In this document: piece after piece, positions 8,144 through 62,037 of the stretch
How the letters are laid out: the number at the start of each line of letters is the position of its first letter
Position numbering within the stretch: the first letter of the stretch is position 1
Program-made: the position numbers and the translations under genes
Notes under the pieces: model-generated
Told to the model about the DNA's origin: nothing
The model's database searches: none
What the model saw: the letters and a program-made list of their open reading frames with translations, nothing else
From: Sipunculus nudus
Taxonomy: Eukaryota > Annelida > Sipuncula > Golfingiida > Sipunculidae
DNA: 64,000 bases
Assembly (NCBI GenBank): GCA_026874595.1
Contig: CM049306.1
Location: 10,997,019-11,061,018, forward strand
Direction of reading: 5' to 3'

Positions 8144-8242
8144 CTTTCTGATTGTGACAGAGAAGACTCTGCTACAGTTCATACAGTTGTGGACTTCTGA
8201 ATCACTCGCCCACTTTCTGTTCTGATTCTTATTGGTGATGAT
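8144..8242 (-). CDS. EEA1: EEA1 exon 39: start of FYVE domain (residues 1547-1579)
   Basis: Contains NRKWASDSEVHNCMNCSRVF then SVTIRK; human has NRKWAEDNEVQNCMACGKGF then SVTVRR (recalled). The FYVE WxxD motif (W-A-S-D) and the first zinc CxxC (C-M-N-C) are present. The exon ends just before the expected R(R/K)HHCRxCG signature, which binds PI3P and is not found in 1-8143, so the last exon lies beyond the window. Acceptor TTTCATCAG, donor GTCTGTATC, phase 0-0. Confidence 0.94.
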
Positions 8243-47200: not shown

Positions 47201-50200
47201 CATGTCCAAGAATAAAATAAAATACAGAAAAATTATAACATTCATCTAGTTTATGCACCAGCTGGGGGGGGGGGGATTGAGTGCAGGGCAGAGGGGAAGC
47301 CTGCTAGTAGTGGTCAAGCTGGGCCAAGATAAGCTGCCTGGGGTGGGTTACATAATGAAAGTGAAGGCTGTACTACTAGGTGGGCTAGATGTAAACAACA
47401 CTTGACATGGTGTATGAAAACATGAATAAAAGCTATTCATTCCAATCAATTTCTTTTGAAAGTTCAGATTTTAAAAGATTAAATCCTTATGCATATATGC
47501 TGGGAAAATTAAATCAACAGTGCCAAAGTTGGACAAAATTTAAGGTATTGATTTTTTATTTATGCTAATAACTTGAAAAATTTGCAAAATTCAGTTCTAA
47601 TTTTGGGTAAACAATTGAATCTTGATTAAATAAAGTTATATTCCTGAAAAAAAGTCTCTAGGTTCAGCCATTCTCATGTTAGGTGAGTAAATATATTTCC
47701 TGATTTTTAAAAAAATCTCATTATGTTTTGGCCCATAACTTCAAAATAATACCCAATACTGACCTAATTTTTAGTATGTTCATAGAAAATGTATAAAAGA
47801 ATGTGAATACTAAATACGATCAAAAACAGATCAGTGGTTTTGATATTAGGCAGCCTTGAAGTGTAACAATGGCTTTTTTTATGGAAAACAGAGTTTTTTT
47901 TCCTTAATATCTCAAAGGAACAAAGTCCTAATGACCCAATTTTTGGTATGGTAGGAGATTTTTGGGACATCTAAAAATATGTCAACAGCCTGGGGAGCAT
48001 AGAGATGTGCACTGAATGACCTACAGTCATCAAAGCGGACAGCTTGACAATGTAAGGGAATACAACAAGAGCCTCCAAAAAAATTCAATAACTAGCCTAA
48101 TTTTGCAGCTTTTATTTTCAAATTTCAGATTTTAACAGATTAAATCCTTATGTATACATGGTGTGAAAATTAAATCCACAGTACTTACAGGAAAAAAACG
48201 TGCCATGGCCAAAGTTGGGCAAAATTTAAGGTACCAATTTTATATTTTTGCCAATATTTAAAAAAATTTAACAAATTTTGATCTAATTTTTGGTATACAA
48301 TTAAATTTTGATTAATTAAAGTTGTATTACTGGAAAAAAGTCCCTACCTTTAACACTTTTGGTCTTAAGTGACCAAATATATTCCTGATTTTTTTACAAA
48401 GTCCATTATGTTTGGGCCCATAACTTTTTTAAATTATATAATACTGACTTAATATCTGGCATGTACATAGGAACTATATAGAGAAATATTTATGGTAAAT
48501 ATGAAGAAAACCAGATGAGTGGTTTTGATATTAGGCAGTCCTGAAGTGTGAAAATAGATTTCTAATAAAAAATTGAGGTTTTTCCTTAATATCTCAAAGG
48601 AACGAAGTCCTATTGACCAAATTTTTGGCATGGAAGGAGATTATGGGGACATCTAACTTTATGCCGAAATTCAGATTCGTAGGTCCAACTTTGTCGAAAC
48701 GTGCCAGTCTTACGGACGGACATCCAGACGGACAGACAGACAGACGGACGGACGGACGGACGGACAGACAGACAGACAGACAGACGACGGACAATGGACC
48801 ATGATTATAGCTCAGATGACTTATAGTCAGCTGAGCTAAAAATTCACAGACCATGTTATGGAGGCCATATTGCACATGGGGAAGGTCTTTTATTCAACAG
48901 GGCTAGAGCCTTCAAGATCATAGGCACCAATCATCCCTGTGAATTTGACAAATCAAAAGAAAATCAACAGTTGTGCTGTGATAGCCATATTGGGTTTTGG
49001 ATTGGTCTGTAATTTGATAGGGCTGGAGTATTCATAGACACCTATCATCTCTGTGAATTTGAAATATTCACTGTTTTACTGACAGATGGAAATGGACAGG
49101 GCGATCATTGTAGGGCACCACTTTTCTAGTTACAAAATACAGACCCACCTGTTTTGTGCAGCGCTGGGTGCTTCGTGAACTTCTGCATAATGTTTCTGAA
49201 GCTCGTCAGGTCCAGGGAGTGCAGCTCGACAGAGAGGGCACAAGAAACCCTGAAAACAGTCAGCAACTAACGATAATAAGATTAACCAACTGACCCCATT
49301 TCATATATAAACTCTGTATTCTCTGTTATCATTTCATTTACCTTTTACATAATTACACAATTCTATATGCCTCATTACTGCTATTTTAAAAAGAAACAGT
49401 TCAATAATAATGATATTATAAAACATATTTTTTTCTTTTTGTAAATTTAATTGATGTTTTACCATGTACAAACTGATATGCAGGGGTAACTGAATTTGTT
49501 TAAATAAGAAATATTTAATTTATTTTTATGTAAGAAATACTGAAAAATCATGAACCTTGACAAAAGGGACCAATTAAACAAATTTATTGGAGACTTGTTT
49601 AAATATTTAGTATTTAACACACACATTTGGAAACATGGGCTGATACAGAGAGGCAAAACAGAGAGATAGTGGCATGTAAAAACATCTTAACTTTTCAAAG
49701 GAAAGACAGAAAGTCCGGGAGACAGATCAGGGGTTAGTGACAGTGTTAAGAGTAGGACAGAAGAATACAAAGCTGTACTGTTGGTGTGTGAGGATATTAT
49801 GATATAATAAAGAAAATACCACAGATCAGGAGAGATTTAAAAGGTGATCAAAAACAATAAGATGACAGTGCAGAATGAAAGAGAAAGAATAAGACATCAG
49901 TTGAAAGGTCAATAGGTCATCAGAAAGGTCAAAAGGTCAAAAGAAAGAAAGGTTGATAAGGGCAAAAGGTCAAAAGATAGAAAGGTCAAAAGAAAGAAAG
50001 CTCAAAAAAAAAGAAAGAAAGAGGATATGAGTGTGTTGTAAATAAAGCACAAACATCTACTTTAACCTTTATACAAAAGACATTTTCTGTATATTAAATA
50101 TTGACTTCACAAACTACACAATGTGGGTCCATAAACAAAACACTGAAATGAAACAAAGTAAAGCACAAAAATTAGCCCTGGTTAGGCAGAGATTAGTCTG

Positions 50201-53200
50201 AGATCAAGAAACTATGTTAGTCACAATTATACAGCTTTGATACAAATTAAATGAGGCACCACACCATGCTGTACACATGTGACACCATCATTCCTATATA
50301 AGCTCATACTGTATGATGTTAAAACTACCACCTACACACTGTATCACTCACACACTGTATAGTTATATACACCATAATTCAGATAATGTGTAGACTTATT
50401 TTTTGGGGCAAACCCCACTGAGTGATAAATATGAAGTAACAGAATGTTTATAAGTGTTATATATTATGTATGATACGTGATATATGTACTTCTTTCATGC
50501 TGACCTAATGTTTATATTAAACCAATTTATATTTATATTAAACAAACAAAAACTAAAATTTCGGAGCAATTTCTCTCTTCCTTTTAAGCTGTACAATGTG
50601 AATGCTTAAGTTTCATTGAAGTTTAAACCATGAAGCCATCTTGATATTCCATTCATATGTGTACCACATATACACAAAGTCATTCAGTTAGTGAAGGTTA
50701 ATCTATTGTTTCACCATTCAGACTCTACTGTTACTGTTAGTGATTCAGCTTTCCGCATTACACTCAGTTTGTTTACAAGATTTTGTCTCTTTTTATCATT
50801 AATTAATGTATGCATTCTATTAAATTACTTAGAAAACAACATATTTACTAATATATATACAAGTTACAAACAACAAAAGGGACAAATTTTTTCTATAAAA
50901 CTAAAAAGAAAAAGTAGCATCCACAAAACTAGAAATGAAAACTATTCACCAAACAGAATATACTATGAATATACAAGATAACAAGATGAAAGAGCACAAT
51001 ACACAAAGAAATAAAGTATCAATCAAAGAGCAACGCAACAACATGTAGACCAAGCCGTGTCAGAACTATGGTCCCAGTTAACCCAAGCACAGCATGCAGG
51101 CGCTGTAAAGCAACAAACCTTCGCCTCCGCAGAGGCATGTTGGGAAGGTGAAGTTTCTTCATGAGCGGCGTCAAAATGGATGGTCAGGGACTCGGGAGTG
51201 GCAAAGTTTTGCATACAGATTGGACAGAGGAACCCCTGAGAGACACAAACATTGGGAGTCACAATAACTCTTTGTATTTAAGGATTTAAGATAACACAGG
51301 AAGTCACAAACCTGTTTAAAAAATGAATTTAAGATACAAACAGTGGGCATTTTGTTAATTGTTTGTTCTCACTCGGTAACAAACATTGGGAATCTTTATG
51401 CCAGTTTCTCTTACAGAATCGACTTTCATATATCAATTATGAGTTACATGTATATTACATGTATTTCTTTGTATTAAATACAAGATATATATATATATAT
51501 TTATATATATTAATATGTGTGTGTGGGCTGTATATGTATAGTTTGCATATTATGCTGATATTTCCACACCATGTATTTATAGGTTATCTGCAAATCTTAA
51601 ACACATCAAACACAGGCATGTGAGCCCATTATGATCAGTTCTGTATCCCATAAAATCATAAACCATAATAGTCAGATCAATAAATCAATATCTCATTCAC
51701 ATTAATCTGATCTTGCACTCAGAATTATGTGACATTAAAACATAAATGATCTATGCACTGTGATCCCTCAGGAATCAGACCTTTAAATGAAAACTTTGTG
51801 ATAAAAATTTCTATGTACTACTGCAATTTTATTTATGGTTTAAATCCTGATATAACTGAGTCAAATAATTCAAAGATACAATAATCTTTAATTACAAATA
51901 TTACAGACAAACTGACTTAACCATGAATAAATATGACATTTTAATAAGGGGATTAATCATAATTATTTAAATAACTGTTGTTAAATCTTATTGTTTGTGG
52001 TTTTTTAACATGGGATGAAATTAGTCAAATTTAAATATTTAGCCAGAAGGGTCTAAATATAAATGATTTCTGAATTCCATGCAAGAAAATCTCAAGCCGT
52101 CATCATTGTTCACGGTACATCATAGTAATATTTAATATTCTGTGTATTTTAAAACATACCTAAGCAGTTAATATACTGTTATTAACTATTATTACGTCTT
52201 GATATTTTTCACTGAAGAATCACCATGTTATAACAGAGCAGATGACCTTCAAACCTATATGGTCTGTGCAATAAAAAAACATGTGTCCAAGCTGTCTGTA
52301 CAATATAGTTCTTGTCTTTGAGAATGCCTGACAAAGGAAAAACAATGTAAAAGCAAATCTTATCTTTATATGTCAATGAAAATTTACCACAAAAGAAGCA
52401 CTGGATGGACATATTTCATTCATTCTTACAGAAATTGAGTAGTTTATCTTAATTTGCAGGTAATTCATTACTAATCATGACTGTTCATGTAAGGCCAGGC
52501 TATAATCAGGAGAATATGTAAAACTTCTGATACAGAAACATAAACTTGTAAATATTAACAATTATACATTGCAGTATGGAATCCCTTAAATTCTCCCCTC
52601 TGTCTCCTTTCAACTTTAATTGTCAGATGTTCAAAGTAAACTTTTCAAGCAATTTATTGAATCACCACTCTCCAAGGCTAAGACTGAATCTGTGTGACGA
52701 CATGTTGAGGCCGAGACTTAGTTGAAGTCATTACCCTCCATGTCAGGTTCCAGATCACTCTCCTCACACAGCGGTTATACACAACAGTCATCCCAAATCT
52801 CCTGTTTTAACTGCTGTTTTGTATTTCAAAGTTCTCTGGGTTACACCACCAGGGCTAGCACAGAACAAAGAACTGTAATCTGACCAACGGGAATGTGGTA
52901 GCACATTGTGCGTCCAGCTCAAAAGTTTAAACATGAACACCCCCTGGCCCTGTACCAGAACTGGTGTAGTCACACCAATAAGAACAGGTGATGTAGGAGT
53001 AAACTTTTGTCTGATTTCAATTCTTTGCACTTGAGATCTGGGATGACTGCAGTGTTAACCATGGCATGAGGAGCGTAGGGTCCACACAGCCTTTGGATCT
53101 GATGTCTGAATTCTGGTCTGAGTGAACAATGAGTGCATTTACATTACATTCCAGGTAGGCTAAGGCTAGATTAGAGAACTGTGGGAAAATGATTTGTTAC

Positions 53201-56200
53201 AAGTGACCCATGGGTCAAGATGCTCAGCTGACAAGGAAGACATTCACAAAAGGTGTACGTGGTATCCCCATTTAACTGTAGCAATTAAAGTTCTCCAATT
53301 TTGACAGGGAGAAAAAGTTTCATGATAATATGTCCAGCCATTCCCATGAAATCAAGCCTTTTTGTATGCAGTCAGCTGAGCTAAAAATGCTCATGCATAA
53401 CTTTTTAAGGATATCCCTGGATATCAAGACAGAAGATTCTAGGTCCAACAGTAATTTCTGTACCCTGTCTGACTTTCTGGGTGCTAAAAATGATTTTGGC
53501 CAGTAATATAGATCACCATTACCTAATTTCAGGTTTCCATGGAGACTGCCTTAGATATTTGGTCTGCAGCATGCAAAATATCGGTCAGCATGATCTAATT
53601 TCAGGTTTCCATGGAGACTGCCTTAGATATTTGGTCTGCAGCATGCAAAATATCGGTCAGCATGATCTAATTTCAGGTTTCCATGGTGATTGCCCAAGAC
53701 ATCCCTGTATTTTACATTGGAACATTCTAGGGCAAGCAGATACAATTTGTGCCCATCTGATTTTCAGGTACGCTCTGAACACAGCACATGACCTCCCACT
53801 CACATGCTGTGAGAAATGGAAGGATTCTTCAGGTTTGGCAAGCTGCCAAACACCCAGTCAATTTGCGCTGGGAAAGGATATCAGGCCACACCAGCAAGTT
53901 AGTATAGAGACTGTATAGGTGACAATGGCATCTTGTGTTTTCCATCGAGGGTTGGAAAAAGTCTGTGCTACCAGGCACTTTCGACAGCAGTGCAAATCAA
54001 CTGGCACCTAAAAGAACAGATCTGATTGTGCTGATGATACCTGCAATGTGATTGGTTAAATACTACATAGGGGATTTCTACAGAGACATCACCACCTGGT
54101 GGCAAATCCTGACAGGGAACCTAATTTCAGGTTTCCAAAGAGATTTGCCTAGGACCTTCCTGGATGTACAGCTAGAAGTTTCTAGGTCTAACAGTTACAA
54201 TTTAGGTCCTGTTAAAAGACATACTGCTTCCCCTGAAGGTCTCAAAAATGGAGAAAGAAATGCTTAAAAATTGGGAAAATACAGGTGGTTTCACCACTCT
54301 TATGGAAATGATGAAACACTCAATGGTTAATCTGCATCAAAAGAATCATGGCATTCAATGCATTAGTTATTCAGACATCGAAGCTTTTGTATCAAATTTT
54401 TAATTATTCTAGGGGAGGTGCTTTAGAGCCCCATTGCACTGAGGATATAGGTCACAGTGACCTAATTTCAGGTTTCCAATGAGATTTTTTTGGGGGGCTC
54501 CATGGGAGTAACATTGAGAAGATTCTAAGCCTAGTGGATACACTTTGTGCCCAATCTGACTGACTTGGTACTTGAAATCATGTTTTCAGCCTGTAGTTCA
54601 CAAAATATAGGCCACCATGACCTTAATTTCTGGTTTCTAGGAGATTGGCCAAGGACTTCCCTGGATTTAGTAAGAAGTCTCTTGGTCTAATGGTTATGAT
54701 TTGTGCCCTGTTAACAGAGGGACTGCTTCATCTGAAGGTTTAAAAAATAGAGAAAAAAATGCGTAAAAATTAGGAAAAACACAGATGGAATGATGAAACA
54801 CTCCATGCTCAATATGCATGCAAAGAATCATGGCAATCAATGCATTAGTTATTCAAATACTGAAGCTCTTATATAAAATTTTTGATTATTCTGGGGGGTA
54901 CTTTGGAGCCCCATAGCTAGAATATAGGTCACAGTGACCTTATTTTAGGTTTCCAATGAAATTATTATGGACCTCCATGGGTGCTACATAAAAAAGATTC
55001 TAGGCTTAGCTGATACAATTTGTGCTCCATCTGACACAAAATATTATGTTTTCAGCCTGTAGTTTGCAATAGATAGGTCATCATGACCTTATTTCAGGTT
55101 TCCAAAAAGATTGGCCGAGGACCTCCCTAGATGTACAGTAAGAAATTTCTAGGTGTAACGGTCATGTTTTGTGCCCTGTTAATAATTGACCTGCTTTATC
55201 TGAAGGTCTCAAAAACAGAGAAAGGAATGCGTTGAAATTAGAAAAAATACAGGTGGCGCACTAGTCTTCGGGAGAGGATGAAACACTCCATGAACAATAT
55301 GAATGGAAAAAATCATGACAATCAATACATAAGATTTTCAGATATTGGAGCTTTTGTATCAAATTTTTAATTATTCTAGGGGGGGGGGGGGACTTTCAAG
55401 CCCCTAGCTTGGAGATATAAGTCACGGTGACTGAATTTCAGGTTTCCATGGAGATTTTGTATGGACCTCACTGTATGTGGAATTAGAAGATTCCAAGGCA
55501 AGCAGTTATGATCTGTGTCCTGTTAACAGACGGATGGACAGACAAGTCAGATGGACAACGGACAAAGAGTGATTGCTAGAGCTCAGATGACTAAAAGTCA
55601 TCTGAGCTTAAAGTTGTGATCAAATAAAAAAAAATATAAGATAAACAGGAAAACGTTCATTGCCATGAGCCAGCCTTCTGAGTGCTACAGACTGAATCTT
55701 ATTTATTGCCATGAGAGACCAGCCTCTAGGCACAGAGCGGCCTTGAAATCTCTAACACAGATACTCATGCCTGTGATCTGCCATTTAACTGGGTGGCTGA
55801 GGTACAACTAGTTTGCAAAATTTAAACTAGATGTGTCGGAACGACATGAATGCCCCCGCCTGGGGCAAATTAGAAACATTTGTTAAATTTTGTAAAAATT
55901 TTTAAGTTCAGGAAGTGTTGTATGGTCAAAAGTAGGTCAACAAGGGCCAAATGCAAACTCGATCTGTAAAGGGCCATTATCAAGCAACACACCAAAAATC
56001 AGGCCAGTATCTGCAGGCATTGTGAAAAAAAGTCCATATATGTGCATTTTTCATGAAAATTTCTGTCTTTCATGAAATTTTATGTTCAGGATCTGTCATA
56101 TGATGAAAAATAGGTCAACTGGGACGAAACGCGAACTCGATCTGTAAGTGGTCATTATGCGCCCACAGACCAAACAGGCCAGTATCTGTAAGCATTGCAT

Positions 56201-59200
56201 TGCGAAACTAGAATATTAGCAAAAGTTGATAATCATTTATAAATTTAAATTGGAGAGGTATATACCATGTTTCATAACAATCCACCAAATGCTTCCTGAG
56301 AAATAAGCTCCTAAGTTTTATTCTATACTAAGCTCTGTGACCTTGAAAAGTAGGTCAAGATCACCCATCTTTGAACTTGACCAAGATTTTGTAAATATAA
56401 TGCAATAGCACTGAATAAATGAAGTTCCTGTGTTGAATACCTTTGGAGATATCCTACACAAAAGGCCAAAATTGAAAAAATCCGATAAAATTTCATTAAA
56501 AAATCAGAAATTGCAGGTGGCGCCACCAAAATTGTGCAGCACATACAGACCATCAGTCCCAATGATCATAGTAAGTTTTGTGAAAATCCACACAATGGTT
56601 CCTGAGATATAAACTTCTGAGTGTTTTTCTATAATCAGCTCTAAAATGTAGAAAAATGGGTCAAGGTCACCCATCTTCGAACTTGACCGAGATTTTATTG
56701 ATATACATCTTCACTGATGAAATAAAATTCCAATGGTGAATCCTTTTAGAGATATCCCGCTCACAAGGTAAAAGTTAACAGACGCGGAACGAACGGACGG
56801 ACGGACGGATAGACACCGGACAGACAGATGGACAGCTTGAGTGACGACAATAGCTCATCAGCCTATGAGCTGAGGATTAGGCTGTACATGTATATTTGTC
56901 ATGAAAATTTATATTTTTCATGAATTTTTCTAAGTTTAGGAGCCGTAAAACGGTCAAAAGTAGGTCAACCGGGACTAAATGCGAACTCTATCTGTAACTG
57001 GTCATTATCTGCCCACACACCGAAAATCAGGCCAATATCTGCAGGCATTGCGAAAAAAAAGTCTGTACATGTGTATTTGTCATGAAAATTTCTATTTTTC
57101 GTGAAATTTTCAAAGTTTAGGAGCTGTAAAACAGTCAAAAGTAGGTCAACCGGGACAAAACGCGAACTCGATCTGTAACTGGTCAATATCTGCCCACACA
57201 CCAAAAATCAGGCCAATATCTGCAGGCATTGCGAAAAAAAAGTCCGTACATGTGTATTTGTCATGAAAATTTCTATTTTTCGTGAAATTTTAAAAGTTTA
57301 GGAGCCGTAAAACAGTCAAAAGTAGGTCAACCGGGACAAAACGCGAACTCGATCTGTAACTGGTCAATATCTGCCCACACACCAAAAATCAGGCCAATAT
57401 CTGCAGGCACTGCGAAAAAAAGTCTGTACATGTGTATTTGTCATGAAAATTTCTATTTTTCATGAAATTTTCTAAGTTTAGGAGCCGTAAAACAGTCAAA
57501 AATTGGTCAACCGGGACGAAACGCGAACTCGATCTGTAACTTGTCATTATCTGCCCACACACCAAAATTCAGGCCAATACCTGCAGGCATTGAGAAAAAA
57601 AGTCTGTACATGTGTATTTGTCATTAAAATTTCTATTTTTCATGAAATTTTCTAAGTTTAGGAGCCGTAAAACGGTCAAAAGAAGGTCAACCGTGACGAA
57701 ACGCGAACTCCATCTGTAACTGGTCATTATCTGCCAACACACCAAAAATCAGGCCAATATCTGCAGGCATTGCGAAAAAAAGTCCGTACAACTGTTTGAT
57801 TTCGGAATGACGGAATGACGGACATGGGTAAAACTATATGCCCCGGCCACTTTGTGGCGGGGGCATAAAAAAATCATGAAAATGTTACTATCCTCACAGT
57901 GACATCACTGACATATGGAGTGTAAGCAAGCTTCCATTCGTGTTCTACACTTCTCTTTTTGGCTCATCTAGTATCCACTTGTTTTAACCACAAATACCTG
58001 AGGGTAAAATTTCCTGCATATGATTTTTTATGGCCTTGTCCATTCTACAAAAACACAAAATCAGGGTTGGGGAGCAACAATACTGTCAATGTGTTGTCTG
58101 TCAGCGGTTTATGATAACAAACATTACCCTAATGATATCTCAAGTTAGCAAAACAGCTCCAAAAGACAAAAACTGACAAATACAATATAAAAAACTGAAT
58201 AATGATTTTATTCTTATATTAATTAAAAAGTTAGCAAATAAAATACTGAATACATAAAGCCCAACACTCCCAAAATAAAACGATTTTTTGCATTTTCTTT
58301 CCTGTTATATTTTTTTTAATGTATATAACTTTGTTCTGCAGATTGGCCAACGGTAAATGTGCTTCATTAAAAGTCTCTGACCAGTGATTTTTTTTCAATA
58401 TATAGCCATAAATGTTTAAAACAATGGTAATGCAACAGTTTGGATAATTTTAATTTTACAAACAAAAAATATTTTTAGTACTGTATGTCAACAGCATCCT
58501 ACTTAATGGAAGCTTTCATTTATTATTGAACCTTTCTTTTAATAATCAGAAACCAGAAATTAACATTCATAACAAATATGGCATGATCATATTTTGCAAA
58601 AAAAAATACTTTTCTTGAGTTTAAACAAATTAATTAATTTCATAGTACAAACAAAAGCTTATACAGCTCCATATCTGCAAGTTTGTCTAATATTTGATGA
58701 AAGACAGAAACAATTGTTGTTAATAAATCAGTGAATGAAAATTCATACCATGATTAATCACACACAGGGTCAACCATCATTGATGCAATCAATAAATTAA
58801 TAAATAATTCATAAAATAATTGTAATATCCTATATTTAAAATTATCTTTGAAACTATGATAATCACATAGAAGTATAATTGCTAATTACGTAACAAGAAA
58901 GCCTGATACACAATTACCATATACAGCCATTTAATTATCCAAAGAAAAGTAAGATGCATACCACATACATTTGATTGGCTTCCTTCATGCCATTCCAACA
59001 ACAGCACTGATATAACAGGGCAAATAAAGACCATCCATGTCACCAGCGTAAAACACAGCGGACAAGGTAGAACAAAACATGAGGATCACTAGTACATGAC
59101 CTTGAAGAAGAAAAAGGTCCAACCTCACTAGCCTTCTGGCTGTGAACACACTCAAAGTGCTTCTCCAGAAGTGAGAGAGTCACAAAGGTCTTCATACACA

Positions 59201-62037
59201 CAGGGCACAACAAGGCCTGCCAACACAGCACAGGTTTGTAAAACATCTCAGCACCTTATTGTTCCTGCAGATGTTACTTATACATAAGAAGAAATAGAGA
59301 CATTGGTGTAAGAAGTGGGGTCTATACAAGTTATCTATCCAGACTTGTAAAGGTGGAACAACATAACCCCTGTTTAAATATAAAATAGTTAGCAGGGCTC
59401 TATAAGTTGACTAAATTACTCTGAGCCATTCAGATCCAACTCCATTTTTTTTTATTACAAGATTTAAATTTTTTCTTCATATGAAAAATCTTCATCAGAC
59501 CATGACAACAATTCAGCACCGTTTCACCAACAACTCTCAAACAACTAAGTAAGAGACCTATCCTGTACAAAGAACCTCTCTAATAGAAGCTTATATCATT
59601 AATCCCTAAATATTACCTAAGTGTAATTGTATACAAGATGTTTTATCACTTTTCAAACTACCACAGCTATGACATGTTGCACTAACTTACAGTACGCAAG
59701 AAAAATTATTACAACTCTTAATAATTGGCAAATAAGTTGGCAATAAAAGAATGCTGGAAGGAGAGAGATAGACAGATGATGTGCACAATAACAGCCATGT
59801 ACTATATTGCAAGACATCCCTTCTTGATCAACAGTTCTGTTCACTTGACCTTCCTCAAGTTATCACAAGATGTAAGAAGAGAATGCTAATACATGGTCTA
59901 TAATTATTATGACCATGTTCAGCTCTTATATTTCAGCCTTAAAAATTTTTCAGTACCAATAACTTATTTAGCGTATATTCACAGTACTTACCATATTTTT
60001 TATGTGTACAAACATGCATGTTAATGGCTCAAAAGACTTTACCTTCATATAAATATAAACTTTATGTGTCCTGATAACTTTACACTAGTGTAGTATTACA
60101 CTTGCAACAATATGGACAGTTAGGGCACACCACATTTCACACCTTTGTTATGTCATCAGAGTGATATATGGCTGGCACTTCCTGCTGTTGTAATGACATC
60201 ATCTGCTAATTAGCTGATGGTCACAAGGACAAAAGAGAAAGATGATGGGGTTTGATATGAGAATTGCCTCCTGTACAGTGCTCATGAGGTTCATGTATAC
60301 AGAACGAGGGAACAAACAGCAGACCCCATTGTATACCAGTTATTATTATTTAATATTATTATTATTATTAGTTACTCATTATTAACTTTAATTTTAACAA
60401 TATTATTTATTACATATTCTGCCAGAATAAGGGAAATATGAACTGTGAGGGAATAATTTTAATATGGTCAACATGGTCATGTGTGATATATGATTGCAAG
60501 AAACTGTTGTCATTAAGAGCCCTGTGTTTAAGCCCAACACAATCACCACAGCTTCAATCCCAAAGATGAACAATCACTGAAACAAGTTAAGAGGATTTTC
60601 ATTTACAAATGAGTGTAATTCTTGCCTTGTTTATGTTGCTGGTACAGCACTTTATTTAATTACCTATCTGACCTTTATAAAACTAAAAGTAAACCTTTCG
60701 AGCTTTTACAAAAACAGGCCAAAATACATGGATATCACCACACACAGGCTGCTTGTTTTGTTTATAATATGTGTAGGCCCGCCAAAATAACCAAAACAAA
60801 TTAAACAAGGGCATCTGGCAGCAAATCAGATAAGCAAGAGCTTTGCAAAAGGCATTTTGCAACAAGTGATCTTTCTACCTCTACATAAATGCAACCTACC
60901 ACCTTGGGTTACATGTTTTTTTCCTGTTTGTCAACATTGCTGTGTTTACAAAATGTTGTTGATAAACAAGTTCATACATCCTTCAAGAAAGTATTATAAG
61001 AACTTTTCTCATCCAAAATTACCCTTAGATAATTAATATATAGCCAGAAGTCACATAAATTCTTTTTTAAAAAGTAGGTGAATGGGCACCTTTATGTATA
61101 GATTTATTAAACAGGGTGGAACCTTAATGATGTTGCTTCATGTGTACAATGCATGCTTCTTCTATTATGCAGTATGAGTAAGTAATAATACAGTTCACAG
61201 CTGCAATATAAGCCTAAATTATAATAGGCTATAAAAAATAAGCATTTCTTCTATATATTATTTACCCATTCACAGTTCTTCCTGTAGTTTTTTAATCCAG
61301 TATCTATCTGTTTCCTCCCCTCCCTCCTCCTTTTTTCCCAATGTTGGGGAAATAAAAGTTTATCCGAAGAAAAAGTACAAACTTGGAGCAAACAGTGTGA
61401 AAATTTGGTTTAAAGATTAAACAGCTTTGTGTATTTTAAAGAATCACTCCTTTAATAGTTTGGATCTGAATTTCATGACATTATACAGAAGCATAACATG
61501 GGGATCACATGACAGTTAAACTTTTCATGCTTTATGCAGTCAATATTACTTGAAGCTTTAATACAAAAAAAGTTATTGGATTATAATTTTGTTATACTAA
61601 CTTATAGAAACCAGTTAGAGCATATATAAATACTGTATGTTTTAACTGTGTCATAAGAAACACAATATAAAAATGACATTATATGAATAAAGTCTTCTTA
61701 ATTCACATTTAATATGATGAATACCTAGCATATCAAAGCGAAAAAGAAGCACTAGTTTGATGAGGTGAATAAAATAAACTACTTTAACACACATATGCTA
61801 AGAATAGAAAGATGATTATACCTGATTTTCCGTGGTTCCCCCCATGCCACTCCCACCATCCGATGACCGGCCCCCATCACGACTTGGAGGTGGTTGCTGC
61901 TGCTGTAAAAGATAAGCAGAAATACGGGTGATTGGATGTTAATTATGGACGATCAAATGTTTTGGTGAACAAACGTAAACTGTGATGGTAAAGGTAATTA
62001 CCTTGTCAGAGTCCTTCTTTCTAAACCTCTTCAGCAT
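8144..62037 (-). CDS. EEA1: Early endosome antigen 1 orthologue, 39 exons, 3' end missing
   Basis: EEA1 is a long dimeric tether on early endosomes. Its N-terminal zinc finger binds Rab5-GTP, a long coiled coil spans between membranes, and its C-terminal FYVE domain binds PI3P. I assembled 39 minus-strand exons, each listed separately, with GT-AG boundaries and matching phases; they sum to 4737 nt with no internal stop. Residues 40-134 carry three C2H2 fingers, residues ~170-1546 are heptad-rich and mostly charged, and residues 1547-1579 start a FYVE domain. Blocks close to human EEA1 (from memory) include RPGADDV (res ~261), ERRALLER (~1498) and ELGRENQSLQ (~1537). Human EEA1 is 1411 aa, so this one is longer. 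The remaining FYVE residues and stop lie left of position 1. Identity is very likely; individual exon ends are predicted, not confirmed by transcript. Confidence 0.95.
8686..8706. repeat. (CCG)n trinucleotide run
   Basis: Seven or so CCG/GCC units just inside the left end of the Helitron. The relative at 35260-36143 has a shorter GGCGGCGG run at the equivalent place, so the run belongs to the element. Confidence 0.85.
8828..10390 (+). repeat. 280-bp tandem repeat core of the Helitron
   Basis: Units are spaced exactly 280 bp (equivalent positions 9108, 9388, 9668), with a diverged fifth unit after ~9948. Each unit carries two copies or near-copies of the palindrome GGTGGCGCCACC. Neighbouring units differ at only a few positions, so the expansion is recent. 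Confidence 0.92.
10520..10640 (-). CDS. EEA1: EEA1 exon 38 (residues 1506-1546)
   Basis: Encodes RCLASEGECEKLREMAADM then RRKLDDAQAALHELGRENQ and SLQ; human has RCLKGEGEIEKL and ELGRENQSLQ (recalled). This region before FYVE is where the C-terminal Rab5/calmodulin contacts map in vertebrates. Acceptor GACCCAG, donor GTAGGAATGC, phase 2-0. The donor is only 57 bp from the end of a Helitron. Confidence 0.94.
10641..12091 (-). other. Introns 36-37 of EEA1, nothing else seen
   Basis: 10641-11286 and 11342-12091 are AT-rich intron sequence either side of exon 37, without repeats or coding signal that I can recognise. Confidence 0.7.
11287..11341 (-). CDS. EEA1: EEA1 exon 37 (residues 1488-1505)
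   Basis: Encodes ELEAKLSTNNDERRALLER, matching human VLEATVQNNQDERRALLER (recalled) nearly residue for residue. Acceptor TATTTCAG, donor GTCAGTGC, phase 1-2. Confidence 0.94.
12092..12275 (-). CDS. EEA1: EEA1 exon 36 (residues 1427-1487)
   Basis: Coiled coil, 61 codons plus 1 nt, phase 0-1; HEMQLSALSENLTTLRGDL matches the human 'LTMQITALNENLGTVKKE' region (recalled). Acceptor TTTTGTAG, donor GTAAGTGTC. Confidence 0.88.
12391..13914 (+). mobile_element. Family C non-autonomous element, single insertion
   Basis: Starts GTGACCCATGGGTCATGACG, containing the 12-bp palindrome GACCCATGGGTC, then CTCAGCTGAC. It ends with an RGAC microsatellite (~13815-13862), hairpin 13881-13909 and AAAA. Four internal units of 300-340 bp. 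Sits in EEA1 intron 35. Same architecture as family B, with a different core. Pearl/Helentron-derived (HINE) is the best guess. Confidence 0.7.
14053..14142 (-). CDS. EEA1: EEA1 exon 35 (residues 1397-1426)
   Basis: Coiled coil, LQRHLEENQNTAIQSQAILK then EENLQLQDKL, phase 0-0. Acceptor CTGAACAG, donor GTAGGTTG. It ends about 140 nt from the family C element at 12391-13914. Confidence 0.82.
14143..15187 (-). other. Introns 33-34 of EEA1, plain
   Basis: 14143-14582 and 14679-15187 flank exon 34. AT-rich, no repeat signature or coding seen. Confidence 0.7.
14583..14678 (-). CDS. EEA1: EEA1 exon 34 (residues 1365-1396)
   Basis: Encodes EIESINETKEMLISQKLEMQ and onward, similar to human '...LKDAKQLLIQQKLELQGK' (recalled). 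Acceptor TATCTTCAG, donor GTAAGAATGC, phase 0-0. Confidence 0.9.
15188..15319 (-). CDS. EEA1: EEA1 exon 33 (residues 1321-1364)
   Basis: Coiled coil, 44 codons, phase 0-0; ALEDEHRRLQSNHKELQESK then EAVEMDNQSLKKIIE. Acceptor TCCAAACAG, donor GTATGTATCC. Confidence 0.86.
15397..15955. repeat. Repeat element bounded by TATTTCTCCCC-type inverted ends
   Basis: ATATTTCTCCCCTTCC at the left is mirrored by AAAGGGGAGATATAA at the right. The interior has three diverged ~115-bp units with 'ACCTTGAAAATCAAAGTCAA'-like text, and a C-run (15920-15934). In EEA1 intron 32. Confidence 0.45.
16212..16280 (-). CDS. EEA1: EEA1 exon 32 (residues 1298-1320)
   Basis: Encodes LKTSLEGKISELDIQITDV plus NEEK, phase 0-0. 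Acceptor TACTATCAG after a T-run, donor GTATTTC. It lies 4.6 kb from exon 31 because of a family C repeat array. Confidence 0.82.
16384..20409 (+). mobile_element. Family C array: one 5' end, three 3' ends
   Basis: One 5' end (GTGACCCAGGGGTC at 16384) is followed by a 3' hairpin at 17547-17575, a truncated one at 18062-18086 and a final one at 20375-20403, the first and last preceded by RGAC microsatellites. Between them are many ~340-bp units with the signature GATATGGGTAACAGAGACCT. The successive 3' ends without matching 5' ends suggest head-to-tail joining or end bypass. The G-run at 19141-19159 and one at 18471-18478 sit inside units. Occupies EEA1 intron 31. Confidence 0.7.
20887..21045 (-). 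CDS. EEA1: EEA1 exon 31 (residues 1245-1297)
   Basis: Coiled coil, 53 codons, phase 0-0; QSLNRETKIKEDLQGAQTR then LDSLQGQLTLVRGQSSDLES. Acceptor AATTTATAG, donor GTAAGGTC. Confidence 0.87.
21200..21439. repeat. Perfect palindrome, 118-bp arms, 4-nt loop
   Basis: Left arm 21200-21317 and right arm 21322-21439 are exact reverse complements around AAGA (21318-21321). Both strands therefore open with the same short reading frame, which is not a gene. Lies in EEA1 intron 30, 156 bp from exon 30. Confidence 0.95.
21596..21679 (-). CDS. EEA1: EEA1 exon 30 (residues 1217-1244)
   Basis: Coiled coil, 28 codons, phase 0-0; GLKTEFQNIKGQCKNYERQL then VTSQEQLQ. Acceptor TCCTGCAG, donor GTAAGTTTAA. The next intron holds the perfect palindrome at 21200-21439. 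Confidence 0.85.
22220..22309 (-). CDS. EEA1: EEA1 exon 29 (residues 1187-1216)
   Basis: Gln/Glu-rich coiled coil, 30 codons, phase 0-0; KASVEKEKELNEKLRQRQ. Acceptor TTCATCCAG, donor GTAATACG. Confidence 0.83.
22843..22980 (-). CDS. EEA1: EEA1 exon 28 (residues 1141-1186)
   Basis: Coiled coil, 46 codons, phase 0-0; VSTLESKCTELEKVKSELET then EREDLKKSLSKLDIQLKQ. Acceptor AATAACAG, donor GTAGTTAATC. Confidence 0.86.
23689..23736 (-). CDS. EEA1: EEA1 exon 27 (residues 1125-1140)
   Basis: A 48-nt exon, DKYTSLEHKESNLRSQ, phase 0-0. Acceptor ATTTGTAG, donor GTAAGACTG. Small, but heptad-compatible and with good splice sites. Confidence 0.72.
24231..24371 (-). CDS. EEA1: EEA1 exon 26 (residues 1078-1124)
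   Basis: Coiled coil, 47 codons, phase 0-0; VQDLEKSQASLLGDKSMLNN then QLLVLETEKVELSAQHEKLK. Acceptor TTTCATCAG, donor GTCAGGTC. Confidence 0.84.
24413..24905 (+). repeat. Dispersed-repeat-like block with GACCTCCACCAAGGC start
   Basis: Starts near GCGCAGACCTCCACCAAGGC and ends ATAACCCCCGCCACATGGCA. The tail 'TCCTGAAAATTTCAACAATA ... CTTTTTGAGTAATGTTGCTA ... ACAGACAAACCAATG' has the style of repeats common in marine invertebrates. Copy number cannot be judged from one window. Confidence 0.5.
25453..25701 (-). CDS. EEA1: EEA1 exon 25 (residues 995-1077)
   Basis: Coiled coil, 83 codons, phase 0-0, starting VKTELQNVRSDLDKTKQ. A five-Ser run interrupts the heptads near the middle, a likely hinge. 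Acceptor CTCATACAG, donor GTCAGACC. Confidence 0.87.
26226..26327 (-). CDS. EEA1: EEA1 exon 24 (residues 961-994)
   Basis: Coiled coil, 34 codons, phase 0-0; contains TLEQTIRSKKDVENKLKTT. Acceptor CATTGTAG, donor GTACACAAAA. Confidence 0.84.
26628..26756 (-). CDS. EEA1: EEA1 exon 23 (residues 918-960)
   Basis: Coiled coil rich in Ser/Lys: VKSELKGSKKKCSDLESSVK then DLTATNSSLTSKCSTLESS. Acceptor AATTTCAG, donor GTAATGTGAC, phase 0-0. Confidence 0.85.
27401..27558 (-). repeat. DIRS right inverted terminal repeat
   Basis: Pairs with 31647-31806. Beyond it, the outer tip (27354-27400) is unique to this end and includes a G/C-rich stretch starting AACCCCCC. Confidence 0.92.
27600..27711 (-). repeat. 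DIRS internal complementary region
   Basis: 27600-27666 is the reverse complement of the right element edge (27354 to ~27420), and 27664-27711 is the reverse complement of the left edge (~31778 to 31825). The two halves overlap at GTT (27664-27666), the same trinucleotide (AAC on the other strand) found at both genomic edges. This is the template used to join the ends during circle formation. Confidence 0.9.
27775..28173 (-). pseudogene. DIRS tyrosine recombinase, C-terminal catalytic part
   Basis: Contains ISNWIKAAI, AYEVRAIASSFAH (catalytic Arg at ~28044-28042) and WKSPSTFIQFYLKDV with the nucleophilic Tyr at ~27945-27943. DIRS recombinases usually read AHDVR or AHEVR, so the usual His of the HxxR box is Tyr here. 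The segment is separated from the N-terminal part by a frameshift and a stop codon. Arg and nucleophile Tyr are kept, the rest is degenerate. Confidence 0.82.
28395..28868 (-). pseudogene. DIRS tyrosine recombinase, N-terminal part
   Basis: A 157-codon open frame with the helical core-binding region of a DIRS recombinase: FLLHLLQDKHLSFPTIRGYR and AALLSVLRPL, then HKTAFLLSLATAGR near its end, where the first catalytic Arg box should lie. The frame ends exactly inside this box; recognisable coding goes on in another frame and then meets a stop near 28338. Upstream coding (29439-28786) is low-complexity Pro/Ser-rich and in another frame. Confidence 0.8.
29358..29582 (-). pseudogene. DIRS RNase H fragment
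   Basis: Read in the frame that runs 30203-29250. It shows FNDASRMGWGAHL (first Asp), INILELRAV (Glu) and MTDNTTVLA (Asp), the spaced acidic residues of the RNase H fold found after DIRS reverse transcriptase. The same frame upstream is not RT coding, so the domain is frame-separated from RT. Just past MTDNTTVL the continuation appears in a third frame (ETYRLFDLC, near 29330), a further frameshift. Confidence 0.82.
29465..30133 (-). pseudogene. DIRS reverse transcriptase fragment
   Basis: An open frame of 222 codons. Residues ~20-165 are a reverse transcriptase palm/finger region: KGAIVPV, SRIFLVPKP, DLKRLN, IDFTDAYFHVPI (catalytic Asp), FRALPFGI and PYLDNW near residue 159. The usual YxDD box reads YLDN, so the second catalytic Asp has become Asn (codon ~29650-29648). 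The thumb and connection segments are missing: within about 40 nt the sequence passes into RNase H in another frame, indicating an internal deletion. The frame after residue ~170 is out of register. Confidence 0.85.
30515..31537 (-). CDS. DIRS gag-like ORF1, Cys-rich N-terminus
   Basis: An open frame of 340 codons at the 5' end of the element. The first 50 residues carry CxxC pairs at C10/C13, C26/C29 and C43/C46, a pattern common at the start of DIRS ORF1 proteins and probably zinc-binding. The rest is Pro/Ser/Ala-rich with no enzyme motif. The function is presumed structural (nucleic-acid packaging), by analogy. The frame stops at 30515; similar-looking sequence continues in another frame to ~30290, so the end may be frameshifted. 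Confidence 0.75.
   Translation of the reverse strand: MATVEVSRTCSSCGASLPSWATHPSCLSCRSSEGTCLGEADPCYYCHTWPPSQWARLHAWSTALDPIEPSPALSSAPVAGSRGGATPSVFSRVALRSPSADPLLVPDPVPPSPGSVFQTPVGAPARALAAPSRKRPTPAPPEPPEKALAFSLIHHLSSFCESLRVVFDLELESAPQAMAPGQVSLTDPPVLSPLRPARMEVTRSRPAPAQVSAPPLLDPPLPSRLSLCPLRDRPSADAVHLPSGSPDARPAVPVTDPVCAPAAPAASSALDSPSVRSPLVFTDQAPPAGTDQWTTLNTQRQAWPSIKSDLLDQVARTMQASRPDGPTFHRPPLLCRQGST
31647..31806 (-). repeat. DIRS left inverted terminal repeat
   Basis: Reverse complement of 27401-27558 with two visible mismatches and one single-base indel in about 158 bp. The outermost ~19 bp (31807-31825) differ from the other end, as in DIRS elements, whose two ends have unlike tips that are both copied in the internal complementary region. 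Confidence 0.92.
31998..32111 (-). CDS. EEA1: EEA1 exon 22 (residues 880-917)
   Basis: Coiled coil, 38 codons, phase 0-0. Acceptor TATTTCAG, donor GTAAGTGGC. The next intron (26757-31997) contains the DIRS-like retrotransposon. Confidence 0.86.
32112..33321 (-). other. Introns 20-21 of EEA1, plain
   Basis: 32112-32781 and 32911-33321: AT-rich, no recognisable feature. Confidence 0.7.
32782..32910 (-). CDS. EEA1: EEA1 exon 21 (residues 837-879)
   Basis: Coiled coil with a Gln-rich stretch, then YNNLQQKCVSLESDINEK, similar in layout to human 'YLSLEQKTEELEGQIKKLE'. Acceptor TTTTTGTAG, donor GTAAGTACTT, phase 0-0. Confidence 0.86.
33322..33456 (-). CDS. EEA1: EEA1 exon 20 (residues 792-836)
   Basis: Contains AELLLTSEAAKNTQRADLEN and later AQNALEEKTNELSK, matching human TELLLSAEAAKTAQRADLQN and AQNALQDKQQELNK (recalled). 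A strong identity anchor. Acceptor TTAACAG, donor GTACATCA, phase 0-0. Confidence 0.94.
33800..34022. repeat. 44-bp minisatellite
   Basis: CTGTGACCTTGACA-type units recur with anchors at 33814, 33858, 33902, 33946 and ~33990, exactly 44 bp apart; later units are diverged. The array ends within ten bases of the exon 19 splice donor. Confidence 0.92.
34029..34259 (-). CDS. EEA1: EEA1 exon 19 (residues 715-791)
   Basis: Coiled coil, 77 codons, phase 0-0. Acceptor GTTCTCAG, donor GTAATGCG. The donor directly abuts a 44-bp minisatellite in the intron. Confidence 0.88.
34260..35038 (-). other. Intron 18 of EEA1, plain
   Basis: AT-rich, with T-runs near 34550 and 34720. Nothing recognised. Confidence 0.7.
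35039..35092 (-). CDS. EEA1: EEA1 exon 18 (residues 697-714)
   Basis: Encodes IEAGEGVETAINQLKQEN, directly after EREDLIAK as in human EEA1 (IQAGEGETAVLNQLQEKN, recalled). Acceptor TCTTACAG, donor GTGAGTCAGG, phase 0-0. Confidence 0.92.
35260..36143 (-). mobile_element. Second, shorter Helitron copy, opposite orientation
   Basis: Read on the minus strand it begins TCCGACAAAACAAAG with the same left-end hairpin as the element at 8643 and ends near 35260 with the same GTAGTCCCTTGTCGACTT hairpin. It carries about two diverged internal units, including exact GGTGGCGCCACC at 35406-35417. It lies in EEA1 intron 17 and is older than the 8643 copy, judging by divergence. The precise 3' end is uncertain. 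Confidence 0.65.
36413..36506 (-). CDS. EEA1: EEA1 exon 17 (residues 665-696)
   Basis: Contains IQNLEQQLEGSRSHINQLEK then EREDLIAK. Human EEA1 has IQNLEALLQKSKENISLLEK then EREDLYAK (recalled), so the correspondence is clear. Acceptor AATTTCAG, donor GTCAGTCAG, phase 2-0. Confidence 0.92.
36989..37071 (-). CDS. EEA1: EEA1 exon 16 (residues 638-664)
   Basis: Coiled coil, phase 0-2; contains VENLKSSIREKENSLEEQQ. Acceptor CCCTTCAG, donor GTGGGTAC. Confidence 0.84.
37297..37406. repeat. 27-bp minisatellite, four units
   Basis: AGTAGAATGGAGTATCTATA units start at 37297 (variant), 37324, 37351 and 37378. Intron 15 of EEA1. The 27-bp period keeps a frame open on the minus strand, but this is not coding. 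Confidence 0.9.
37453..37539 (-). CDS. EEA1: EEA1 exon 15 (residues 609-637)
   Basis: Coiled coil, 29 codons, phase 0-0; contains MKEKESAITDLSTQVKEVQ. Acceptor CTGTTACAG, donor GTTGTTAAT. Confidence 0.84.
38031..38168 (-). CDS. EEA1: EEA1 exon 14 (residues 563-608)
   Basis: Coiled coil with LTEKEKQVESLEKLLGDSK, like the repeated 'EKxxQVxxLxxxL' blocks of EEA1. Acceptor CCATTTAAG, donor GTGAACCAC, phase 0-0. Confidence 0.86.
38610..38840 (-). CDS. EEA1: EEA1 exon 13 (residues 486-562)
   Basis: Coiled coil, 77 codons, phase 0-0. Acceptor TGTTTTCAG, donor GTGAGTCAAG. Contains VKGQVDKLQADLTSVEE and a Leu/Glu/Lys-rich remainder. Confidence 0.88.
39081..39360 (-). repeat. Four extra copies of the exon 12 end plus splice donor
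   Basis: Units begin at 39081, 39150, 39221 and 39290, alternating 69 and 71 bp, and the true exon end is the fifth at 39361. Each holds a copy of the last ~36 nt of exon 12 followed by GTAA. Alternating TTCTGATTC and TTGTGATTTC variants show a two-unit (140-bp) higher-order repeat. Reading through the true donor meets a stop codon at ~39325-39327. Confidence 0.93.
39361..39697 (-). CDS. EEA1: EEA1 exon 12 (residues 373-485), largest exon
   Basis: A 337-nt coiled-coil exon, phase 2-0. Repeated ALxEKxxxLAEQT-type heptads follow a block rich in Glu/Lys. Acceptor TATTTTCAG. The donor is CACAG|GTAAACATCC; the last ~36 nt of this exon plus its donor are copied four more times just downstream in the intron (see the repeat at 39081-39360). 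Confidence 0.9.
40027..40158. repeat. Near-perfect palindrome, 66-bp arms, no loop
   Basis: Arms 40027-40092 and 40093-40158 pair with only about four mismatches (for example at the GTCGAGGG/CCCTTGAC and GATCCAGA/TCCGGATC positions); the centre is ACAATTGT. In EEA1 intron 11. Confidence 0.93.
40288..40356 (-). CDS. EEA1: EEA1 exon 11 (residues 350-372)
   Basis: Short coiled-coil exon with NEEKIKDLERRLNEAPKKEE. Acceptor TTTCAACAG, donor GTCAGTGTG, phase 2-2. Confidence 0.82.
40884..41150 (-). CDS. EEA1: EEA1 exon 10 (residues 261-349)
   Basis: Starts with RPGADDVLVLKQELV followed by AQTLMD, closely matching human EEA1 (RPGIEDVAVLKKELV, QTLMD; recalled). This is one of the strongest identity anchors. 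The C-terminal half is a run of near-repeats (HSALNN, HKALTE, HSALSN). Acceptor TTATCTAG, donor GTATGTTG, phase 2-2. Confidence 0.93.
41490..41635 (-). CDS. EEA1: EEA1 exon 9 (residues 213-260)
   Basis: Coiled coil; acceptor ATTTTGACAG, donor GTAATAACAG, phase 0-2. The last codon is split and finishes as Arg, leading into the conserved RPG block in exon 10. Confidence 0.88.
42655..42761 (-). CDS. EEA1: EEA1 exon 8 (residues 177-212)
   Basis: Coiled coil; contains HLRSDLDDAKEDLRIISQEK, rich in Leu/Glu/Lys. Acceptor TTTTACCAG, donor GTTAGTTTG, phase 1-0. Confidence 0.85.
43282..43345 (-). CDS. EEA1: EEA1 exon 7 (residues 156-176)
   Basis: Encodes DPGELEMFKEQLRASEESRTL, where heptad periodicity and the coiled coil begin. 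Acceptor GTTTTACAG, donor GTAAGTAA, phase 0-1. Confidence 0.85.
44472..44508 (-). CDS. EEA1: EEA1 exon 6 (residues 143-155)
   Basis: A 37-nt exon, phase 2-0, encoding a Ser/Asp/Ala/Lys-rich link ending Arg-Ser-Lys-Ser-Asp. Acceptor TTTTTCAG, donor GTAAGAAA. It fits only if both neighbours are used, which supports the model. Confidence 0.75.
45661..48842 (+). mobile_element. Family B element, longest copy
   Basis: Begins GGGACCCATGGGTCACGG then CTCAGCTGA, preceded by ACAA as in family C. Ends with GACA/GACG microsatellite 48713-48789, hairpin 48809-48837 and AAAAA. From 46672 onward it is nearly the same as 4325-6497. Occupies EEA1 intron 5. A G-run lies at 47265-47276. Confidence 0.7.
49149..49249 (-). 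CDS. EEA1: EEA1 exon 5: third C2H2 zinc finger (residues 110-142)
   Basis: Third finger starting GFLCPLC, with C113, C116, H129 and H134. The segment around HYAEVH is very like human HYEAVH, making this the closest match to the single vertebrate finger over its second half. The equivalent of human M47 is R117. Acceptor GTTTTCAG, donor GTGGGTCTG, phase 0-2, joining the coiled-coil part through exon 6. Confidence 0.92.
49880..50025. repeat. Purine-rich AAAGGTCAAAAG low-complexity stretch
   Basis: Irregular repeats of AAAGGTCAAAAG and GAAAGAAAG in EEA1 intron 4. The rest of this intron (49250-51118) shows nothing recognisable. Confidence 0.8.
51119..51235 (-). CDS. EEA1: EEA1 exon 4: second C2H2 zinc finger (residues 71-109)
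   Basis: A second C-x2-C-x12-H-x4-H finger starting GFLCPICM, with C74, C77, H90 and H95, followed by a Ser/Ala/Glu tail. Acceptor TCTCTCAG, donor GTTTGTTG, phase 0-0, so skipping or including it keeps the frame. Rab5-contact equivalents are F72, L73, P75, M78 and F91; only the last aromatic differs in kind from human. Confidence 0.9.
51236..53202 (-). other. Part of intron 3 of EEA1, mostly plain
   Basis: AT-rich intron. 52640-53150 is less AT-rich and holds an 80-codon minus-strand frame without recognisable domain or splice context; I do not call it a gene. Confidence 0.55.
51490..51530. repeat. (AT)n and (TG)n microsatellite
   Basis: ATATATATATAT, TATATATATTAA, then TGTGTGTGTG in EEA1 intron 3. 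Confidence 0.9.
53203..55613 (+). mobile_element. Family C element in intron 3
   Basis: The 5' end is GTGACCCATGGGTCAAG then CTCAGCTGAC; an internal 3'-end remnant CAGTCAGCTGAGCTAAAAA lies at ~53371-53389. The 3' hairpin 55580-55608 has a perfect 12-bp stem. Units are more diverged than in the 16384 array, and 53525-53700 holds three near-identical ~90-bp subunits. Confidence 0.65.
56212..56873 (+). mobile_element. Family E insertion nested in family D
   Basis: Interrupts the 180-bp periodicity. It has its own CGGACGGACGGACGG and GACA-type microsatellite (~56786-56832) and 3' hairpin AGCTCAT-CAGCCT-ATGAGCT (56853-56872), and one exact GGTGGCGCCACC at 56516-56527. The left edge is approximate. 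Confidence 0.5.
56880..57790 (+). repeat. 180-bp tandem repeat, five units
   Basis: Anchors AGTC(T/C)GTACA recur at 57061, 57241, 57421, 57601 and 57781, exactly 180 bp apart. Units are highly similar, indicating recent expansion or homogenisation. Confidence 0.93.
59124..59216 (-). CDS. EEA1: EEA1 exon 3: first C2H2 zinc finger (residues 40-70)
   Basis: Encodes a C-x2-C-x12-H-x4-H finger with C43, C46, H59 and H64, at the same residue numbers as the human EEA1 finger. Acceptor TTGGCAG, donor GTTGGACC (a weak but legal GT), phase 0-0. Against the Rab5-contact residues I recall for human EEA1 (F41, I42, P44, M47, Y60) it has L41, L42, P44, M47 and F60, so its Rab5 affinity is uncertain. Confidence 0.88.
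60340..60372. repeat. (ATT)n microsatellite
   Basis: TTATTATTATTTAATATTATT followed by further ATT units in EEA1 intron 2. Confidence 0.9.
61822..61902 (-). CDS. EEA1: EEA1 exon 2 (linker, residues 13-39)
   Basis: Low-complexity linker: three Gln, three Pro, then a Gly/Ser/Arg/Asp-rich stretch ending in Glu-Asn-Gln. Acceptor TTTTACAG, donor GTATAATC, phase 0-0. Human EEA1 also has a flexible Ser/Gly-rich stretch before its zinc finger. The CAG run at the acceptor leaves possible alternative acceptors 3 nt apart (NAGNAG type). Confidence 0.8.
62002..62037 (-). CDS. EEA1: EEA1 exon 1 (start codon, residues 1-12)
   Basis: Encodes MLKRFRKKDSDK from an ATG at 62037-62035, ending in phase 0 at AAG|GTAATT. 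The basic start resembles the short basic start of vertebrate EEA1 (MLRRILQR, from memory). I chose this ATG because it gives a clean phase-0 join to exon 2 and a non-coding-looking sequence lies upstream. Confidence 0.85.

Follow-up and report, generated by a model that had tools for sequence, protein, structure and literature searches.

The window, by which is meant the whole stretch of 64,000 nucleotides analysed here (G000:C1:10997019-11061018, in a genome of 1.43 Gb), carries on its minus strand a gene for EEA1 in which three successive exons each encode a C2H2 zinc finger in frame. Human EEA1 has one finger, a layout from which the gene described here departs. According to the reading favoured in this work, in which we place confidence and doubt in equal measure, all three fingers are joined in the full-length EEA1 mRNA, and the dimer would present two or three Rab5-type fingers per chain, acting by avidity or on several members of the Rab5 family.

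The assignment of the gene to EEA1, already made in a sequence-only reading of the same stretch, was upheld by collinear tblastn matches, by an open model of 1612 amino acids and by a complete FYVE domain. With a human EEA1 query, tblastn returned 21 matches, all on the minus strand, and the nine with E<1e-3 run collinearly on that strand from the finger to the FYVE domain; several of the weaker coiled-coil matches are out of order. The model comprises 40 minus-strand exons joined in frame and without a stop from the ATG at 62037, where exons 1 to 5 were placed from splice signals and exon 6 and 34 further exons come from a simple gene finder. In its 5′ part, the order is MLKRFRKKDSDK, linker, finger 1, finger 2, finger 3 and then coiled coil. 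The coding part of exon 1 (62002..62037, minus strand, donor phase 0) provides the first of these elements, an N-terminus that we take to resemble the ML-R of the human protein, and exon 2 (61822..61902, minus strand, phase 0-0) encodes a low-complexity linker ending in TTENQ. Downstream of the fingers, exon 6 (44472..44508, minus strand), which was placed by the gene finder, is entered in phase 2, the same phase left by the finger frame of exon 5, and is followed by 33 coiled-coil exons (10520..43345, minus strand), some of them with uncertain borders. The long coiled coil, recognised as such from its sequence, is collinear with that of human EEA1. The first half of the FYVE domain is encoded at 8144..8242 on the minus strand and the second half just outside the window (G000:C1:10995617-10995745, minus strand), and the two pieces, once joined, match Pfam PF01363 with E=3.4e-23.

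Several repeats were observed within the gene. The coiled-coil exon at 39150-39254 has a doubtful border and sits in a tandem repeat of 70/140 bases (39075-39397), which copies the end of the exon together with its donor site (DEITSLQEQLSQ) and gives a possible candidate for a repeated mini-exon. Tandem arrays were also found in EEA1 introns at 8872-10295 (unit of about 280 bases), 18340-20307 (about 337) and 56882-57790 (about 180). Additionally, an EEA1 intron contains, at 27702-31659, a cluster of long open frames that overlap one another, the longest of them being on the minus strand; we take it to be retroelement-like, with stretches presumably akin to gag, reverse transcriptase and recombinase.

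The claim that exons 3, 4 and 5 encode C-x2-C-x12-H-x4-H fingers was confirmed by a six-frame scan, in-frame joins and splice sites. When the window was scanned in all six frames, the pattern C-x2-C-x12-H-x3..5-[HC] matched three times, each time on the minus strand (59142-59207, 51161-51226 and 49175-49240), and a scan that allowed overlaps, restricted to the form with a final H, likewise gave three. In 60 simulated Markov windows of 64 kb, which keep the dinucleotide make-up of the real one, the bare pattern arose by chance 0.25 times per window, compared with the three observed, and the pattern with [GA][FL]LCPxC was absent from all 60, again compared with three. No further four-ligand match that could represent a fourth finger or its remnant was returned when five fingers were compared with the window by tblastn at E up to 5. 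The linkers between successive fingers, counted from His to Cys, measure 9 and 17 residues and hold no TGEKP. Each finger alone scored below every Pfam cut-off, and the three joined rose above the cut-offs of zf-C2H2_4 and zf-C2H2. Single-sequence AlphaFold2, which had no alignment to draw on, predicted no finger for exon 4 (pLDDT 57.6) and one long helix in place of a finger for exon 3 (pLDDT 84.7).

The splice signals of the three exons differ in strength. Exon 3 (59124..59216, minus strand, phase 0-0) encodes finger 1 (ALLCPVCMKTFVTLSLLEKHFECVH) and ends in the weak donor GAG/gttgga; exon 4 (51119..51235, minus strand, phase 0-0) encodes finger 2 (GFLCPICMQNFATPESLTIHFDAAH) and ends in AAG/gtttgt; and exon 5 (49149..49249, minus strand, phase 0-2) encodes finger 3 (GFLCPLCRAALPGPDELQKHYAEVH) and ends in the strong donor CAG/gtgggt. 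Of the three reading frames in each of exons 3 and 4, only the one that encodes the finger is free of stops. Their AG acceptors, in the order of exons 3, 4 and 5, stand at the 96.1, 99.7 and 98.9 percentile of the 3755 AG in the region, and their GT donors at the 91.7, 92.8 and 99.7 percentile of the 3893 GT. The donor scores were 0.30, 0.58 and 4.89, respectively, and only 3 of the 35 later donors in the model fall below those of exons 3 and 4, a comparison biased by the gene model itself, which favours strong donors. Because exons 3 and 4 are of phase 0-0, in-frame skipping is feasible, and phases and donors taken together mean that chains with one, two or three fingers are all compatible with the genome sequence by itself. 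It is possible, if unlikely, that exons 3 and 4 are alternatively spliced and that finger number tunes the hold on Rab5 vesicles by tissue. Both exons could be dropped without a change of frame while exon 5 feeds exon 6, their donors are weak beside that of exon 5, and an alternative phase-2 donor of exon 3 at 59100 (score 0.01) permits, on paper, a direct jump from exon 3 to exon 6. However, phase 0-0 is also common in the coiled-coil exons of the gene, so symmetry alone shows little, and weak donors can be used constitutively.

All three fingers had also been labelled Rab5-type, a label that stands firmly for exons 4 and 5 and only weakly for exon 3. The best scores against Rab5-type and ordinary C2H2 fingers were 79 versus 47 for exon 5, 79 versus 65 for exon 4 and 68 versus 73 for exon 3, the ordinary set being biased towards exons 3-5 because its loci were fetched by similarity to them. 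Exon 5 had EEA1 (3MJH_B) as the best of 30 PDB matches (E=4e-6), is identical to chain B of 3MJH in 14 of 25 residues and, judged by sequence, is the counterpart of the single human Rab5-binding finger. Exon 4, with GFLCP...HF, bears the hydrophobic pair, the Pro and the H[YF], shares 14 of 25 residues with the finger of a rabenosyn-5-like gene in the same genome (C1:110338701-110338784) and is clearly of Rab5 type. Exon 3 has 12 of 25 residues in common with the rabenosyn-5-like finger and 11 of 25 with each of exon 4 and human EEA1; it keeps the marks as LL-C-P...HF and, with LLCP in place of FxCP, is the one of the three that departs most from the Rab5 type. It is a sound finger that lies, by score, slightly nearer to ordinary C2H2 fingers. 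Four marks, made up of the hydrophobic pair before the first Cys, the Pro after it and H[YF], were found in all five fingers of the set and in none of 27 other C2H2 stretches, these marks having been picked post hoc with the sequences in view. The 27 stretches, 21 of them of matching length, derive from ten loci with matches among 12 inspected, the loci of EEA1, the rabenosyn-like finger, L021 and the archaeal L022 being left out.

When the 1.43-Gb genome was queried with exon 4, seven matches were listed, and its own was followed by three weak ones, to the rabenosyn-5-like finger (E 0.02), to exon 3 (0.109) and to exon 5 (0.114). With exon 3 as the query, ordinary C2H2 exons came first after its own match, the rabenosyn-like finger sixth and exon 4 seventh, and exon 5 was absent among the 21 matches; with exon 5, exon 4 was fourth of five (E 2.9) and exon 3 was absent among these five. 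In the PDB, EEA1 ranked 16th for exon 4 and 15th for exon 3, behind ordinary multi-finger chains, in a ranking by whole-chain score that sums several fingers. The single EEA1 finger reached 22.0 bits with exon 4 and 21.1 bits with exon 3, unmatched by any single stretch of the higher-ranked chains among the four alignments listed for each. Elsewhere in the genome, two regions of G000:C7, near 3.09-3.14 Mb and near 35.8-38.9 Mb, hold exons that encode two C2H2-like fingers apiece (L012, L014-L017 and L020), and we presume that these exons are akin to the alternative 3′ exons of BTB-ZF genes. In a separate observation, G000:C16 was seen to carry 14 of the 18 listed genome matches to the tyrosinase domain, a possible tyrosinase expansion.

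These comparisons bear on whether finger 1 works as the other two are proposed to do. Three fingers could be made while exon 3 binds another Rab, the ubiquitin machinery or a SNARE partner, or only stabilises the N-terminus, which we hold to be improbable. Where human EEA1 has F41, exon 3 indeed lacks a Phe, and both its scores and its genome search place it closer to ordinary C2H2 fingers; however, it retains the hydrophobic pair, the Pro, the Met and the H-F marks of EEA1 or rabenosyn fingers, and the ordinary fingers compared had been fetched by exons 3-5, above all by exon 3, which favours them.

A further question is whether exons 3 and 4 belong to the gene product at all. When left unforced, the gene finder omitted both exons and took exon 5 in another frame under both penalties, and a version with stricter splice thresholds gave the same outcome for the three exons. 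The codon model of this gene finder was derived from coiled-coil exons, and exons rich in Cys and His obtain scores close to zero in it: in the finger frame, the codon scores were -0.18 for exon 3, -1.42 for exon 4 and 3.01 for exon 5, which scored 9.77 in another open frame. The divergence between the fingers was considered by a neutral-decay simulation that drifts two copies as far apart as exons 3 and 4, on the assumption of independent substitutions and a common ancestor of the copies; both copies kept the frame and the four ligands in only 2, 10 and 1 of 20000 cases when started from exons 3, 4 and 5, respectively. The gene finder, the codon scoring and this simulation used assumed splice frequencies and an assumed average amino-acid composition. 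Since neutral decay very seldom leaves an open frame with its ligands at such divergence, the finger exons are taken to be old and kept, and the simulated windows together with the decay simulation rule out chance pattern matches as the source of the three fingers. It is very unlikely that most mRNA uses exon 5 alone, with exons 3 and 4 as relics or rare inclusions and a protein working like human EEA1: the unforced model and the weak donors of the two exons speak for it, but both exons retain their four zinc ligands, open frames and splice signals even though the finger cores have only 35 to 42 of 75 bases in common.

Exon duplication had been put forward as the simplest origin of the three exons; an old duplication is possible, and a recent one was judged unlikely. 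The three finger cores are 36-44% identical in protein, their 75-base coding cores share 35, 36 and 42 bases in pairwise comparison, and the approximately 1200 bases around each finger exon gave only short scattered blastn matches, the best of which (E 0.015, 24 bases) lies in an intron. An origin by duplication within the gene is plausible, most of all for exons 3 and 4, whose phases are equal; the donor phase of exon 5 differs, so a copy of exon 5 would have needed a new donor. A transposon origin was considered and rejected: two genome matches of exon 4 (L005 and L006) are open frames with one GFVC-type finger, which we take to be retroelement-protein-like, but they lack the Pro and H[YF] marks. 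Beyond this genome, the pattern had four matches in viral contigs, with no relative among them, and 36 in genome contigs, with one archaeal contig carrying a C2H2 match. That archaeal metagenome contig (L022:1484-1573, from a Thaumarchaeota MAG) encodes a stretch 41% identical to part of the finger region, perhaps an unrelated finger.

EEA1 is the standard example of a Rab5 tether, and the mammalian protein grips with one weak N-terminal finger per chain. If all three fingers are indeed joined in the mRNA, two extra C2H2 finger exons would precede the conserved Rab5-binding finger at the N-terminus, and the homodimer could display up to six fingers at the tip of its coiled-coil arm. Each finger would form a separate small domain on a flexible linker, and linker lengths of 9 and 17 residues are in keeping with domains that act independently rather than with a stacked DNA-binding array. 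PMC12162657 describes human EEA1 with an N-terminal zinc finger and names Rab21 as a further interactor. According to PMC10397212, Rab5 binding by the human finger is impaired by the F41A/I42A change, and when EEA1-knockout HeLa cells were given the mutant, no maturation events were rescued. The Rab5 contacts are located in the switch regions according to PMC6010109, and PMC5624781 gives a Kd of 2.4-5.8 uM for the human finger with Rab5. The pair at these critical positions is F-L in fingers 2 and 3 and L-L in finger 1. Fingers 2 and 3 could each grip the switch region of Rab5-GTP through these two hydrophobic residues, which precede the first Cys, in the manner of human F41/I42, and finger 1, with LL for FI, may have a weaker grip or a preference for another Rab5-family member or partner. 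As the affinity of a single finger for Rab5 is only micromolar, higher capture and a longer dwell time would be expected, by avidity, from two or three in series. What we infer from the gene as read here comprises the joint splicing of the three exons and, for the protein, zinc binding, dimerisation, Rab binding and increased avidity. A broader proposal, in which three Rab5-family fingers per chain, two of them splice-optional and the first retuned towards another Rab5-family member, make up in the lineage of this animal a graded multivalent tether whose strength and vesicle choice are set by splicing, seems to us rather unlikely.

The sequence-only reading knew of no description of a multi-finger EEA1, and the literature searched, which covered few subscription journals, yielded none either; predicted proteins of the three-finger form may already be present, unremarked, in public databases. 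With an EEA1 that naturally has two or three grips, the influence of tether valency on vesicle capture, on dwell time and on the collapse of the arm triggered by Rab5 could be tested directly. If true, a multi-grip EEA1 would also indicate that the architecture derived from vertebrates is not universal.

When compared with known systems, the three fingers share an identical spacing of zinc ligands with the poly-C2H2 transcription factors, represented here by the BTB-ZF-like exons on C7, and exon 3 aligns with these as well as it does with Rab5-type fingers. However, the gene context and the residues before the first Cys differ, and the EEA1 linkers are long, uneven and not of the TGEKP type. 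Short TGEKP-like linkers are typical of DNA-binding poly-C2H2 arrays, and the linkers of this gene, with their 9 and 17 residues, depart from that design. With regard to rabenosyn-5 (ZFYVE20), the likeness is closest in finger 2, through the residues it shares with the rabenosyn-5-like finger. The latter comes from another gene, in which the exon inspected encodes a single finger of this kind and a FYVE exon lies on the same strand some 7 kb further along; from these two features we infer that the second gene is rabenosyn-5. Vertebrate EEA1, as represented by the complex with Rab5A (3MJH), is alike in collinearity, FYVE domain, coiled coil and the finger of exon 5, in which the position of human M47, numbered from F41/I42, is occupied by Arg, whereas fingers 1 and 2 have Met there. 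The two differ in that three finger exons are found here, whereas human EEA1 has one N-terminal finger.
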